Assembly (NCBI RefSeq): GCF_000373145.1
Contig: NZ_KB890602.1
Span: 276,483 to 340,482, forward strand
Reading direction: 5' to 3'
Length of the DNA: 64,000 bases
Source: Thermus oshimai DSM 12092
GTDB lineage: Bacteria > Deinococcota > Deinococci > Deinococcales > Thermaceae
The notes beneath the pieces were generated by a model. It saw only the letters and a list, made by a program, of their open reading frames with translations, had not been told where the DNA came from and did no database searches. The translations under genes and the position numbers were made by a program. Every line of letters starts with the position of its first letter. The first letter of the stretch is position 1. Positions 29,701 through 34,992 of this stretch are shown one piece after another.

Positions 29701-30723
29701 ATGGATAAGAAAACCCTCCTCTCTACGCCCGTGGAGCCCATTGACATCAAGGCCTTCGACGCCGGGCCCATCCTCGAGGCCATGGGCAAGACGGCCTTCC
29801 AGGCCAGGAACCTCCACCGCGCGGCGGAGATCTACCTGAAGATGCTCCAGGACGACTGCGCGGTGATCCTCACCCTGGCGGGGAGCCTGGTCTCGGCCGG
29901 GCAGGGCCTCATCGTCCACGACCTCATCCGCAAAGGGCTGGTGGACGCCATCGTGGCCACGGGGGCCAACATCGTGGACCAGGACTTCTTTGAGGCCCTG
30001 GGCCACCGCCACTACCAGGGGGACCCCAAGGCCGACGACGAGACCCTAAGGCGGCTCTGGATTGACCGCATCTACGACACCTACATTGACGAGGCCGAGC
30101 TCCGGCACACGGACTACACCATCGCCGAGATCGCGGACAGCCTCCCGCCCCGCCCCTACTCCAGCCGGGAGTTCATCTGGCACATGGGCCGGTATCTGGC
30201 CGAGCGGGGCCTGGGGGAGAAGAGCATCGTGCGGGCCGCCTACGAGGAGGGGGTCCCCATCTTCGTCCCCGCCTTCTCCGACTCCTCCGCGGGCTTCGGC
30301 CTGGTCTACCACCAGGTGAAAAACCCCAAGGCCCACGTGACCATAGACTCCGTGGCCGACTTCCGGGAGCTCACGGAGATCAAGCTCAAGGCCGGCACCA
30401 CGGGCCTGGTCATGCTGGGGGGCGGGGTGCCCAAGAACTTCGCCCAGGACATCGTGGTGGCGGCGGAGGTCCTCGGCCACGAGGTGGAGATGCACAAGTA
30501 CGCTATCCAGATCACCGTGGCCGACGAGCGGGACGGGGGGCTTTCGGGCTCCACCCTCTCCGAGGCCCAAAGCTGGGGCAAGGTGGACGCGGCCCTTTCC
30601 CAGATGGTCTTCGCCGAGGCCACCCTGGCCTTCCCCCTCCTCGCCTCCTACGTCTACCACCGGGCCCCCGCGCGGGCCAAGCGGCGCTACGCCGACCTCT
30701 TCTCCGTAGAGGTCCCCGCCTAA
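29701..30723 (+). CDS. Deoxyhypusine-synthase-like protein
   Basis: Protein of 340 residues clearly homologous to eukaryotic/archaeal deoxyhypusine synthase, which moves the aminobutyl group of spermidine to a lysine of eIF5A. Conserved blocks are LTLAGSLVSAGQGLIVHDLI, VATGANIVDQDFFEALGH, VPIFVPAFSDSSAGFGLVYH, TTGLVMLGGGVPKNF, AIQITVADERDGGLSGSTLSEAQSWGK and the imine-forming Lys in SWGK. Bacteria lack eIF5A, so the acceptor is probably a free amine such as putrescine, giving homospermidine (inference), or an unknown protein. Thermus makes many unusual polyamines, which fits. Confidence 0.88.
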   Translation: MDKKTLLSTPVEPIDIKAFDAGPILEAMGKTAFQARNLHRAAEIYLKMLQDDCAVILTLAGSLVSAGQGLIVHDLIRKGLVDAIVATGANIVDQDFFEALGHRHYQGDPKADDETLRRLWIDRIYDTYIDEAELRHTDYTIAEIADSLPPRPYSSREFIWHMGRYLAERGLGEKSIVRAAYEEGVPIFVPAFSDSSAGFGLVYHQVKNPKAHVTIDSVADFRELTEIKLKAGTTGLVMLGGGVPKNFAQDIVVAAEVLGHEVEMHKYAIQITVADERDGGLSGSTLSEAQSWGKVDAALSQMVFAEATLAFPLLASYVYHRAPARAKRRYADLFSVEVPA

Positions 30724-30733
30724 GCCCGGCTTT

Positions 30734-30767
30734 CCCCCCGGGGGGTGGCGGTCCCCCCGGGGGGTTT
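30734..30767 (+). repeat. Tandem CCCCCCGGGGGG palindromes after the DHS-like gene
   Basis: Two identical 12-bp palindromes (30734-30745 and 30753-30764) separated by TGGCGGT, then TTT. C6 of one copy can pair with G6 of the other, giving a terminator-like stem in the 61-bp gap before the next gene. Confidence 0.6.
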
Positions 30768-30784
30768 GCTAGACTCTTCGGCAA

Positions 30785-33553
30785 ATGCCCGAGGAGCTGC
30801 GCGCGTATCTTAGGGAGCGTTTTTCCGTCCAGGGTCCCCTTTCCCCCGGGCGGTTTGAAGCGGAGCTCGCCAAGCGGGTGGGAAGCCCGGCCAAGCGGGC
30901 CCCCCTCCTCCGGGCCTGGCGGGCCTACCTGGGGGGCGGGGGGAAGGAGGCGGTGCGAAGTTTTTACCGCGAGGTCCTAAAGGTGCCCCGGGGGGAGGCC
31001 CTGGTGTACGGGATGCACCTTCCTTTTATGGAGTTCTACGCGGAGGCGGTGCCGGAAAGGGTGGAGGGGCGGGTGCTGGAGGTGGGGCCCTTCACGGGGG
31101 CTTTGGTGGGCTACCTCCAGAGCAAACGGCCCGACCTCTCCTGGCACGCCTTGGAGGGGGTGGAGGAGGCCTACCGCCTGGGGCAGGAGCGGGTGCCCGG
31201 GGTGGTCTGGCACCTGGGCTGGGGGGAGGAGGCGGAGCTTCCCCCCTTTGACACCCTCCTGCTCCTCTCCGTCTTCCCCGAGGGGTACCTGGGGGAGGTG
31301 GAGGGCCGGCTGGAGCCGGAGGAGTTTTGGGACCGCTTCCAGTTCTTCCCCCGCATCGCCGCCCTGGCCCGCCTCCTCCGCCCGGGGGGGCTTCTCGTCT
31401 ACGGCCACGGGCCTTTCCTGGGCAAGTGCCCCGAGGGGGTGGAGGAGGGCCTTAGGCGCCTGGGCTTTTACGGGGTGGAGCGGGTGGGGGAGGGGGAGTA
31501 CGTCCTGGTGCTCGCCCGCAGGCCCGAGACCCTGGCCCTGGAAAGGGCGGAGGCGGCGCGGGAGGAGGCCCAGGAGGAGCGGGTGCCCGTCCTGGCCTCC
31601 GGGGGTTACCCCTTGGAGGAGGCCCGGGCCCTTCTGGAGGCCGGGCGGTACGCGGAGGTCCTGGCCCTTCTCCCCGAGGAGACCCCGCCGGGGGCCCGGG
31701 AAGCGGCGTACCTGAGGGGCCGGGCCCTCTTCGCCCTCTCCCGCTTTGCCGAGGCGGAGGAGGCCTTCCGCGAGGCCCTTTCCGAGGAGGCGGAGGACTA
31801 CAGGGCCTTGGCCCTGGTGGAGCTTGGGGACTACCAGCGGGCCCTGCCGCGCCTCGAGGGCCTGGCCGTGCGCGGGGGGCGGTACCGGCTCTATTTGGGC
31901 CGGGCCTACCTGGGCCTGGGGCGCTACGCGGACGCCCTCCGGCAGTTCGTGGAGTCGGGCCTCCCCGAGGCGGAGCTCTACATCCAAGACACCCTGGAGC
32001 GCATCGCCGAGCGCATGCGCCGCTTCGCCCGGGAAGGGGAGTGGAGCGAGGTGAGCCGCCGGGCGGAGTTCGTGGAGGACCTCTCCCCTAGGCTCCTCAC
32101 CCGGGAGATCCTCCGGCTTGGGCTTAGGGCGGCCCTCCTTCAGGGGCTTTTCGCCCGGGCGGAGCGCTACGCCCGCCGCCTGGCCGACCTGGACGAGCCC
32201 GAGGGTTTCTTGGGCCTGGCCCTTTCCGCCCTTAGGGTCCGGAGCCCCCTGGAGCTTCGGGGCCAGGAGGACCTTAAGGGGGTGGAGCCCTACCTCACCG
32301 AAGCCCTGGCCCGCGCCGAAACCCCGGAGGCCCTCCTCCTCCTGGGGATGCTCCGGGAAAGGGAGGGGCGCTACCGGGAGGCCCTTTACCTCCTGGAAAA
32401 GGCGGCGGGCCGGGGGGAAGGGGAGGTGGCGGGCCTGGCCTACCACCACCTGGCCCAGGTGAAAAGGGCCCTGAGGCGCCCCCTCAAGGAGGTCTTGGGG
32501 GACCACAAGCGGGCCCACGCCCTAAGGGCCTACCCCGCCCCCTTCCTCTTCCGCCTGGCCCAGGAGGCCCTGGAGGGGGGGGAGGAGGTGCTGGCCCGGG
32601 AGCTCCTCTCCCGGGCCCGGGACGCGGGGCTTGGGGCGGTGGAGGAGGAGGACCTCTTGGGGCTTTTAACGCTCCTGGAACGGCTGGAGGGCCCCTGGGC
32701 CGCCTTCAGCGTCCTCTACGGGGCCCTGGCCAAGACCCCCCACCCCCCCTTGGAGCTCCTCGCCCTGGCCTACCGGCTTTCCCGCTCCTTCCGGGAGAGC
32801 CTCGAGGCCGAGGCGGTGCGGGGCCAGTACCTGGCGGCCCTCTACGGGGCGGGGCGGCTTGGCGAGGCGGAGGCCCTGCTCCTTTCCGAGCTGCAAAGCC
32901 GCCCCCAGGCCCTGGAGGTCCTCTTTGACCTGGCGGAGCTCTACGAGCGCAAGGGGGCCTGGGCCAAGGCGGCGGAGGCCTGGCAGAAGGCCCTGGAGGT
33001 GGCCTTCTACCGGGAAAAGGACCTGGACCTGGCCCGGGAGATCCTGAAAAACCTCCTCTTCCTGAGGCCCCAGGACGAGAGCCTGGCCCTCTACCTGGAG
33101 GAGCTAAAGGCGGTGCGGGAGGGCCTAAAGGCCTTGGGGGAGGAGGCCCGCCCCCTGCCCGAGGCCCCCAGGGAGCTTCTGGAGGAGGACCTCCCCCGCT
33201 TCCACGGGGAGCACCTTTTGGTGGTGGGGGGGCACACCCAGCTCCGCAGCCGCCTCCTCCCCTTCCTGGAGGAGCGGGGGCTAAGGGTGGACTGGTTTGA
33301 CGCGGACAGCGTGGGCGTGGGGCGGGAGTCCTTGAGGCGCATCCAGACCCGCCTGGAGAAGGCCCACGGCCTCATGATCGTCTCCAGCTACGTGGGGCAC
33401 GACCTTTCCGAGCCGGTGCGGGCCCAGGCGGAGGCCTTGGGGGTGCCGGTCTACATCATCCCCGGGCGGGCCCGCGGGGTGACGGGGTTCTTAAGGGCCC
33501 TCAAGGACTTCGCCCCCGAGGTCTTCAAGCGGGCCCTCAAGGGGGTACAGTAG
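30785..33553 (+). CDS. Methyltransferase-fold / TPR / DUF2325-like fusion protein
   Basis: Protein of 922 residues with three parts. Residues 1-250 look like a class I SAM-dependent methyltransferase (RVLEVGPFTGALVGYL, DTLLLLSVFPEGYLGE, ARLLRPGGLLVYGHGP). Residues 270-790 are at least a dozen TPR-like helical repeats (ARALLEAGRYAEVLALLP, YLRGRALFALSRFAEAEEAF, and so on). Residues 815-920 match the DUF2325 pattern (HLLVVGGHTQLRSRLLPFLEERG, ESLRRIQTRLEKAHGLMIVSSYVGHDL, PVYIIPGRARGVTGFL). I know of no standard protein with this order. There is no signal peptide, so it is cytoplasmic. A TAGACT box lies 9 nt before the ATG; mqnD follows 4 bp after. Confidence 0.8.
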   Translation: MPEELRAYLRERFSVQGPLSPGRFEAELAKRVGSPAKRAPLLRAWRAYLGGGGKEAVRSFYREVLKVPRGEALVYGMHLPFMEFYAEAVPERVEGRVLEVGPFTGALVGYLQSKRPDLSWHALEGVEEAYRLGQERVPGVVWHLGWGEEAELPPFDTLLLLSVFPEGYLGEVEGRLEPEEFWDRFQFFPRIAALARLLRPGGLLVYGHGPFLGKCPEGVEEGLRRLGFYGVERVGEGEYVLVLARRPETLALERAEAAREEAQEERVPVLASGGYPLEEARALLEAGRYAEVLALLPEETPPGAREAAYLRGRALFALSRFAEAEEAFREALSEEAEDYRALALVELGDYQRALPRLEGLAVRGGRYRLYLGRAYLGLGRYADALRQFVESGLPEAELYIQDTLERIAERMRRFAREGEWSEVSRRAEFVEDLSPRLLTREILRLGLRAALLQGLFARAERYARRLADLDEPEGFLGLALSALRVRSPLELRGQEDLKGVEPYLTEALARAETPEALLLLGMLREREGRYREALYLLEKAAGRGEGEVAGLAYHHLAQVKRALRRPLKEVLGDHKRAHALRAYPAPFLFRLAQEALEGGEEVLARELLSRARDAGLGAVEEEDLLGLLTLLERLEGPWAAFSVLYGALAKTPHPPLELLALAYRLSRSFRESLEAEAVRGQYLAALYGAGRLGEAEALLLSELQSRPQALEVLFDLAELYERKGAWAKAAEAWQKALEVAFYREKDLDLAREILKNLLFLRPQDESLALYLEELKAVREGLKALGEEARPLPEAPRELLEEDLPRFHGEHLLVVGGHTQLRSRLLPFLEERGLRVDWFDADSVGVGRESLRRIQTRLEKAHGLMIVSSYVGHDLSEPVRAQAEALGVPVYIIPGRARGVTGFLRALKDFAPEVFKRALKGVQ

Positions 33554-33557
33554 GGGC

Positions 33558-34367
33558 ATGGAGTTCGGTTTTTCTCCCTGCCCCAACGACACCTTCATCT
33601 TCTACGCCCTGGTGCACGGCCTGGTGCCAAGCCCCGTCCCCGTGGAGCCCGTCTTGGAGGACGTGGAAACCCTAAACCGCTGGGCCCTGGAAGGGCGGCT
33701 TCCCCTTACTAAGCTCTCCTACGCGGCCTTCGGCCGGGTGCGGGACCGGTACGTGGCCCTACGGAGCGGGGGGGCCTTGGGCCGGGGGGTGGGGCCTCTA
33801 GTGGTGGCCAGGGGGCCCCTTCGGAGCCTAAAGGGGGCCCGTGTGGCCATCCCCGGGCGGAACACCACCGCCTTCCTCCTCCTTTCCCTTTACGGGGAGG
33901 GGTTTGAGCCGGTGGAGGTGCGCTACGACCGGATCCTGCCCCTGGTGGCGGAGGGAGCGGTGGAGGCGGGGCTCATCATCCACGAAAGCCGCTTCACCTA
34001 CCCCCAGTACGGCCTCGCCAAGGTGGTGGACCTAGGGGAGTGGTGGGAAGGGGAGACGGGCCTTCCCCTCCCCTTGGGGGCCATCCTGGCCCGGCGGGAC
34101 CTGGGGGAGGACCTCATCCGGGCCCTGGACCTTGCGGTAAGGGCCAGCCTGGAGTACGCCTGGGCCCACCCGGAGGAGGTCCTCCCGTACCTCAAGGCCC
34201 ACGCCCAGGAGCTTTCCGAGGAGGTCATCTGGGCCCATGTGCATACCTATGTGAACCCCTTCAGCCTGGACGTGGGGGCGGAAGGGGAGGAGGCGGTGCG
34301 GCGCTTCTTCCAGGAGGCGGAGGCCCGGGGCCTCCTCCCGCCCTCCCCCCACCCCCCTTTCCTATAG
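33558..34367 (+). CDS. mqnD: 1,4-dihydroxy-6-naphthoate synthase MqnD
   Basis: Futalosine-pathway enzyme that cuts cyclic dehypoxanthinyl futalosine, the product of MqnC. The 269 residues have the periplasmic-binding-protein-like fold of the structurally known Thermus MqnD: GFSPCPNDTFIFYALVHGL at the start, TKLSYAAFGRV, ARVAIPGRNTTAFLLLSLYG, AGLIIHESRFTYPQYGL with the active-site His and GLPLPLGAILARRDL. It is probably cotranscribed with the TPR fusion upstream and the Crp/Fnr gene downstream. Confidence 0.95.
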   Translation: MEFGFSPCPNDTFIFYALVHGLVPSPVPVEPVLEDVETLNRWALEGRLPLTKLSYAAFGRVRDRYVALRSGGALGRGVGPLVVARGPLRSLKGARVAIPGRNTTAFLLLSLYGEGFEPVEVRYDRILPLVAEGAVEAGLIIHESRFTYPQYGLAKVVDLGEWWEGETGLPLPLGAILARRDLGEDLIRALDLAVRASLEYAWAHPEEVLPYLKAHAQELSEEVIWAHVHTYVNPFSLDVGAEGEEAVRRFFQEAEARGLLPPSPHPPFL

Positions 34368-34377
34368 ACTGTGGGGT

Positions 34378-34992
34378 ATGTTCCAGGGTTTGGGCCTCGA
34401 GGCCAGGCGGGAGGCGGCCCGGGTCTTCCAGCCCCTTCGGGTGCGGCGGGGGGAGGTCCTCTACCGGGAGGGGGACCCCGCGGACGGGGTCTACCTGGTG
34501 CGGCAGGGCCTGGTCTGGCTCCACGCCGAGGAGGGGGAAGGCCTCACCTTGAGCCTTCTCGGCCCGGGGGACCTCTTCGGGGAGGAGGCCCTGGTGGGGG
34601 GGCTTCGCCGGGGCCTTTCCGCCCAGGCCCTGGCCTACACCGAGCTCCTCTTCGGGGAGAGGAAGGAGGTGGAGGCCCTAAGGGCCCGCTTCCCCGAGGT
34701 GAACGCCTTTCTGCTGGAAGCCCTTTATAAACGCCTCAAAGCCATGGAGGCGCGCTTCTTTGAGCTCCGCTTCCCCGTGGCCCAGCGCCTGGCCCGCCTC
34801 CTCCTCCGCCTGGGGGCGGAGGGGGAGGTCCTCTTCTCCCACCAGGACCTGGCCCGCATGGTGGGGGCCACCCGGGAGACGGTGACCAAGCTCCTGGGGG
34901 AGTGGGCCTTGGCGGGGGTATTGGACCTGGGCTACCGCCGGCTGGAGATCAAGGACCGGGAGGCCCTTGCCCGGTTGGCGGAGGCGCTATAA
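34378..34992 (+). CDS. Crp/Fnr-family transcription regulator
   Basis: Regulator of 204 residues. The N-terminal cyclic-nucleotide-binding-like domain (about 1-115) has VRRGEVLYREGDPADGVYLVRQG and LLGPGDLFGEEALVGGLRRG. The segment FGEEALVGGLRRG lacks the Arg-Ser pair that binds cAMP in CRP, so another or no ligand is likely. There are no N-terminal Fe-S cysteines as in FNR. A long dimer helix follows and a winged HTH with recognition helix region ATRETVTKLLGEWALAGV. T. thermophilus has a Crp/Fnr paralogue next to mqnD, and this appears to be its orthologue. Confidence 0.9.
   Translation: MFQGLGLEARREAARVFQPLRVRRGEVLYREGDPADGVYLVRQGLVWLHAEEGEGLTLSLLGPGDLFGEEALVGGLRRGLSAQALAYTELLFGERKEVEALRARFPEVNAFLLEALYKRLKAMEARFFELRFPVAQRLARLLLRLGAEGEVLFSHQDLARMVGATRETVTKLLGEWALAGVLDLGYRRLEIKDREALARLAEAL

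Follow-up and report, generated by a model that had tools for sequence, protein, structure and literature searches.

Proteins of the CheR-TPR type carry a methyltransferase followed by TPR repeats, in arrays that are frequently of 2 repeats (PMC3447774), and in one of them, FrzF, the TPR domain restricts which glutamate gets methylated (PMC2535941). The domain DUF2325 is found in Campylobacter cj1384c, a gene that is regulated by Fur/PerR and lies beside katA (PMC9426514, PMC4491227), and whose product has 7 cysteines (PMC9426514). Here, we describe a gene of Thermus oshimai DSM 12092, located in a stretch of 64,000 nucleotides (the window), whose product joins a predicted methyltransferase head, a TPR array and a DUF2325 tail (Table 1). 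The exact bounds of its open reading frame (30785-33553, plus strand, 922 amino acids) were confirmed, and a search of its own genome found a single copy. An earlier note on this DNA had proposed the three-part anatomy, which Pfam, AlphaFold and Foldseek bear out; its label 'giant' is too strong for 922 amino acids. We looked for the two findings that would speak against this anatomy, a head lacking a SAM pocket and a tail that does not match DUF2325, and found instead a SAM-type pocket in the head and a DUF2325 match in the tail. No signal peptide or membrane segment was evident when the 922-residue sequence was read by eye. An antisense open reading frame over 30977-32518 (513 amino acids) was taken as a GC-codon artefact because conservation lies in the sense frame.

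Table 1. Positions within the window of the gene, the modules of its product and the adjoining elements.
Feature	Position	Strand	Evidence
Whole methyltransferase-TPR-DUF2325 gene, 922 aa	30785..33553	+	ORF list, Pfam, ortholog search, full-length AlphaFold model
N-terminal helical part of head, residues 1-88, five helices	30785..31048	+	AlphaFold model; dN/dS 0.14
Class I SAM-methyltransferase core, residues 89-250 (predicted)	31049..31534	+	Pfam, profile search, AlphaFold, Foldseek, alignment
Core motifs: motif I VLEVGPFTG (97-105), acidic 124, D156, invariant YxHGPFLGK (206-214)	within 31049..31534	+	alignment
Flexible linker, residues 251-276	31535..31612	+	pLDDT about 31-38 over 251-270; dN/dS 0.63 for 251-272
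TPR superhelix, residues 277-784, about 29 helices	31613..33136	+	Pfam TPR, full-length model, Foldseek
Disordered linker, residues 785-805	33137..33199	+	pLDDT about 36
Divergent DUF2325, residues 806-920 (Pfam match 811-907), alternating beta-alpha	33200..33544	+	Pfam, alignment, dN/dS 0.12, low-confidence model
-10-like element TAGACT, 9 nt before ATG, probable leaderless promoter	30770..30775	+	TGGTANACT or a close form of it in Thermus orthologs
mqnD (menaquinone biosynthesis), downstream neighbour	33558..34367	+	Pfam VitK2_biosynth; neighbourhood comparison

Judged by model and alignment, the head is a class I SAM-methyltransferase fold with intact SAM-site motifs, from which methyltransferase activity is predicted. 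All structure predictions used the sequences of the window, T. arciformis and M. granaticius only, that is, shallow alignments of three rows. The model of residues 1-250 (mean pLDDT 85, pTM 0.86) has five N-terminal helices followed by the complete class I methyltransferase strand order in a seven-stranded Rossmann-like fold (strands 96-100, 119-124, 141-144, 155-161, 198-208, 229-234 and 240-245). Its best Foldseek matches are SAM methyltransferases or near relatives (SibL, BchU, Rv2258c, DsyB, PrmA and PrmC; E from 2.6e-10), and a profile search against the PDB returned PrmC/HemK and other methyltransferases, with PrmC as the best (8e-5). Methyltransf_12 was matched by 22 of 24 orthologous heads and Methyltransf_25 by 21 (Pfam; best 1.5e-6). 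The features of the class are in place: the seven-stranded fold, the motif I loop and the acidic residue ending strand 2. In an alignment of 49 sequences, motif I reads [VIA]LE[VI]G[AP][FY][TS]G, with the pattern E99-x-G101-x-[FY]103-x-G105 in all 49; E99, G101, G105 and D156 never vary, and position 124 always carries D or E. Little or no variation is seen at E71, H78, W142, H143, Y206, H208 and K214, as would be expected of an active pocket. Two of these, H208 and K214, are invariant and lie in the loop that follows strand 5, where they may serve in catalysis or contact the substrate. After strand 4, most sequences have LLSVxPEG (160-167) and not the NPPY of known amide/DNA methylases, nor did the head show any recognisable catalytic signature of a known kind.

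The TPR assignment of the middle region passes the Pfam cut-offs (TPR_1 40.6 bits against 27.8, TPR_2 35.3 against 27 and TPR_16 37.2 against 32.7), with the best matches at residues 280-391 and near 685-757, while residues 400-680 are TPR-like mostly by structure only. In the full-length model, about 29 consecutive helices form a continuous solenoid over 277-784, with high confidence over most of its length, and the Foldseek matches of this model are TPR superhelices (CTR9, OGT, SPINDLY, APC/C subunits, SKI3 and designed TPRs). Many polar residues of the superhelix are invariant among the 49 sequences.

By its sequence, the tail is a divergent, cysteine-free DUF2325. Against a Pfam gathering threshold of 33.6 bits (PF10087), it scores 28.8 bits in the whole-protein scan, which is below the threshold, and 34.1 bits as an isolated domain, which passes it; orthologs reach up to 40.5 bits. 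The tail keeps GG815-816 after strand 1 and H872 of the SH-type motif (here GH872), and the HDG-like motif of canonical DUF2325 is replaced by D-W-[FY]-D-x-D. No cysteine was found in the tail of any of the 49 sequences. Since neither the HDG-like motif nor cysteines are universal in the DUF2325 family, their absence does not exclude membership. The tail is modelled as a beta-alpha arrangement with four strands at low confidence (pLDDT about 50), partly because of the three-row alignment, and the profile search found no solved DUF2325 structure, its best match (E 0.07) being at chance level. Neither plasmids nor phages yielded a relative of the tail when searched.

A phylum-wide search found full or fragmentary orthologs in 55 of 111 Deinococcota genomes, one gene per genome: 48 of the 50 genomes of Thermus's own family (f1) and, in the sister family f4, 7 genomes from genera g12 and g13. 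Genus g14, also of f4, and the remaining Deinococcota families in this set have no ortholog, and three further weak matches were TPR-only. In the same 111 genomes the DUF2325 model gave 54 matches, each at the methyltransferase-TPR-DUF2325 gene. The T. arciformis ortholog is 81% identical to that of the window. Four copies (L051, L052, L040 and L047, of genomes G052, G060, G031 and G041) have apparent frameshifts or internal stops, which may be sequencing errors or decay. Comparing synonymous with non-synonymous change over 386 pairs, we obtained median dN/dS values of 0.14 for the N-terminal helices, 0.19 for the methyltransferase, 0.63 for the linker, 0.24, 0.18 and 0.29 for the successive thirds of the solenoid and 0.12 for the tail. 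On these ratios, all three modules are under purifying selection, the tail most strictly. The observation of one three-module gene under purifying selection is confirmed.

In Thermus, the gene order is a deoxyhypusine-synthase-like gene, the methyltransferase-TPR-DUF2325 gene, mqnD, CRP and bshC. In f4, the gene is preceded by glutamate dehydrogenases, GNAT and 2-hydroxyacid dehydrogenase, which is a layout that Thermus shares, and it is followed by transketolase; EF-P lies near it in g13. Upstream of the gene in genus g4, to which M. granaticius belongs, the scanned locus carries 5-oxoprolinase genes and a TRAP transporter. The comparison found no neighbour common to all genera, so the context names no client. 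Deoxyhypusine-synthase-like genes recur near the gene in different genera (29701-30723 in the window, L044:7920-8894 and L048:10257-11384); they are distant paralogs (27-28% identity), and the Thermus one matches the 1,9-bis(guanidino)-5-aza-nonane synthase model. Downstream, 34378-34992 encodes a CRP/FNR-family regulator that, judged by place and name, is probably orthologous to TTHA1567 of T. thermophilus, which two papers count among four CRP/FNR factors. From the numbering relative to TTHA1567, we infer that the HB8 ortholog of the methyltransferase-TPR-DUF2325 gene is TTHA1569, of which no mention was found in the open-access literature; neighbouring locus tags likewise gave nothing on the gene.

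A generic consensus scan found no promoter upstream of the gene. Across the Thermus orthologs, TGGTANACT or a close form of it ends 8-9 nt before the ATG, with no Shine-Dalgarno, which suggests a leaderless transcript that starts at the gene and runs into mqnD. Such a transcript would account for the short gap to mqnD, with no need to invoke a functional tie to quinones. The interval 30724-30784 holds a GC-rich inverted repeat (CCCCCCGGGGGG-type) and then TTTGCTAGACT just before the ATG, and is probably the terminator of the upstream gene together with the leaderless promoter.

In a sample of 390 genomes, the DUF2325 model found matches in 22 that lie outside Deinococcota. In those examined, DUF2325 is either standalone (about 105 amino acids) or C-terminal in long proteins, after coiled coils or unidentified regions, and no methyltransferase or TPR domain was found with it. 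One weak match (L093) was dismissed as spurious, its sequence reading as a dehydrogenase. Standalone DUF2325 genes (L095-L106) occur near Fur and, twice, flavodoxin, with FeoB a few kb away. Together with the regulation of cj1384c, these neighbours suggest that canonical DUF2325 members have a role connected with redox or iron; whether this role carries over to the cysteine-free tail of the methyltransferase-TPR protein is uncertain. Two genera also have a further gene accompanying DUF2325: that at L102:2279-3031 matches DUF3793 and stands with an HD-domain gene as well (HD was tested in L102 only), and that at L105:1323-2069 is similar to it in length and sequence start.

Taking these data together, we tentatively favour, at somewhat less than an even chance, a cytosolic methyltransferase of OGT/SPINDLY-like design, in which the TPR array would capture a protein client and the DUF2325 tail would gate activity. 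The N-terminal class I domain would bind SAM, and the TPR superhelix would capture a conserved client, either a protein or a complex, and present it to the head. The flexibly tethered C-terminal DUF2325 would use its invariant His, Asp and Arg to bind a small ligand or metal, and would thereby gate or adjust methyltransferase activity; the tail model being of low confidence, such a site is guessed at from conservation. We infer a catalytic head, a protein substrate, its choice by the TPR array and regulation by DUF2325. OGT and SPINDLY, as Foldseek neighbours, and the site restriction exerted by the FrzF TPR domain are precedents that make client recruitment by the TPR array plausible by analogy, although such arrays could just as well serve to build complexes and deliver nothing to an active site. 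It is tempting to speculate further on a bacterial OGT-like logic, in which a single housekeeping methyltransferase of Thermus's family, with protein clients selected by its superhelical TPR array, would be switched by a DUF2325 sensor of iron/redox-linked origin; we consider this distinctly unlikely.

Several other readings have to be weighed against the TPR-recruited protein methyltransferase. The head could be a pseudo-methyltransferase that senses SAM/SAH or binds nothing, leaving the TPR array and DUF2325 to do the work of an assembly platform. In keeping with this, the window head, taken alone, has no Pfam methyltransferase match, there is no middle Gly in its motif I, which has the form GPFTG seen in 3 of the 49 sequences, and conservation is higher in the tail (dN/dS 0.12) than in the methyltransferase core (0.19). 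However, F/Y at the usual middle Gly also occurs in solved SAM-dependent O-methyltransferases (LEVGVFTGYS, IEIGTFTGYS; the probe was a generic, hand-typed motif-I stretch) and is therefore no sign of a dead enzyme, and none of the 49 sequences has lost the acidic residue 124, D156 or the pocket residues, so that we regard this scaffold as unlikely, though worth keeping in view. We give about the same modest weight to a small-molecule or polymer methyltransferase held by its TPR array in a multi-enzyme or envelope-associated complex. The top Foldseek matches of the head are indeed mostly small-molecule methyltransferases (SibL, BchU, DsyB and RedM), but they reflect a common core, with an rmsd above 5 A for most of them, and biosynthetic neighbours conserved across genera are absent. 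To our knowledge, small-molecule methyltransferases rarely carry 500-residue TPR arrays.

The two remaining readings are far less probable. The earlier note correctly gave the gap to mqnD as 4 bp and suggested from it that the protein may act on membrane or quinone-related proteins; the spacing, and probably one transcript, are what this proposal has in its favour in Thermus. Nevertheless, mqnD adjoins the gene only in Thermus and the neighbouring genus g5, and it is not adjacent in g2, g3, g4 or the sister family, in which conservation of the gene is no weaker and its neighbours are transketolase/EF-P, 5-oxoprolinase or unrelated genes. With adjacency confined to two genera, we rejected the link to quinones, and we consider such an action together with MqnD highly improbable. 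Hardly credible at all is a CheR-TPR chemoreceptor methyltransferase: the order of modules, methyltransferase then TPR, is the same (PMC3447774), but the CheR Pfam model matched none of 24 heads, which led us to reject CheR membership, no chemosensory genes surround the gene, and the known arrays, frequently of 2 repeats (PMC3447774), were never met with DUF2325.

Here, DUF2325, a domain with no known function, is covalently tied to a predicted enzyme and a putative client-binding scaffold. Thermophilic proteins are easily crystallised and Thermus thermophilus has laboratory genetics, so the function of both DUF2325 and the enzyme is directly testable. The DUF2325 genes near Fur, flavodoxin and FeoB provide a lead for the function of the domain that fits the iron/peroxide regulation of cj1384c. 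If the TPR array does pick the clients of methylation, the OGT/SPINDLY design would extend to bacterial protein methylation.

The claim that no described system has this order of modules holds in part. A methyltransferase followed by TPR has precedents in the CheR-TPR proteins FrzF and WspC (PMC2535941, PMC3447774), whereas the added DUF2325 was not found described in the open-access literature. The same applies to the whole combination of a non-CheR head, a 500-residue TPR superhelix and a DUF2325 tail in the open literature, subscription papers being outside the search. Like FrzF and WspC, the Thermus protein has an N-terminal class I SAM methyltransferase and then TPR; unlike them, its head is not CheR by Pfam, its array is far longer, and it has a DUF2325 tail and no chemosensory context. 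PrmC/HemK is the best profile match among solved structures, and PrmA is among the Foldseek matches, but the match to PrmC is confined to the sequence from motif I to about strand 3, and PrmC membership was rejected as (N/D)PPY is absent after strand 4. With other DUF2325 (PF10087) proteins, such as Cj1384, the tail shares the GG after strand 1, the SH-type motif and the C-terminal place in a long protein; those proteins are standalone or follow coiled coils or unidentified N-terminal regions, often with cysteines, whereas the Thermus tail has none. Finally, OGT and SPINDLY, the Foldseek neighbours of the whole model, also fuse a long TPR superhelix to a protein-modifying transferase. They transfer glycosyl or fucosyl groups with a catalytic part that follows the TPR, while the Thermus methyltransferase stands before it.
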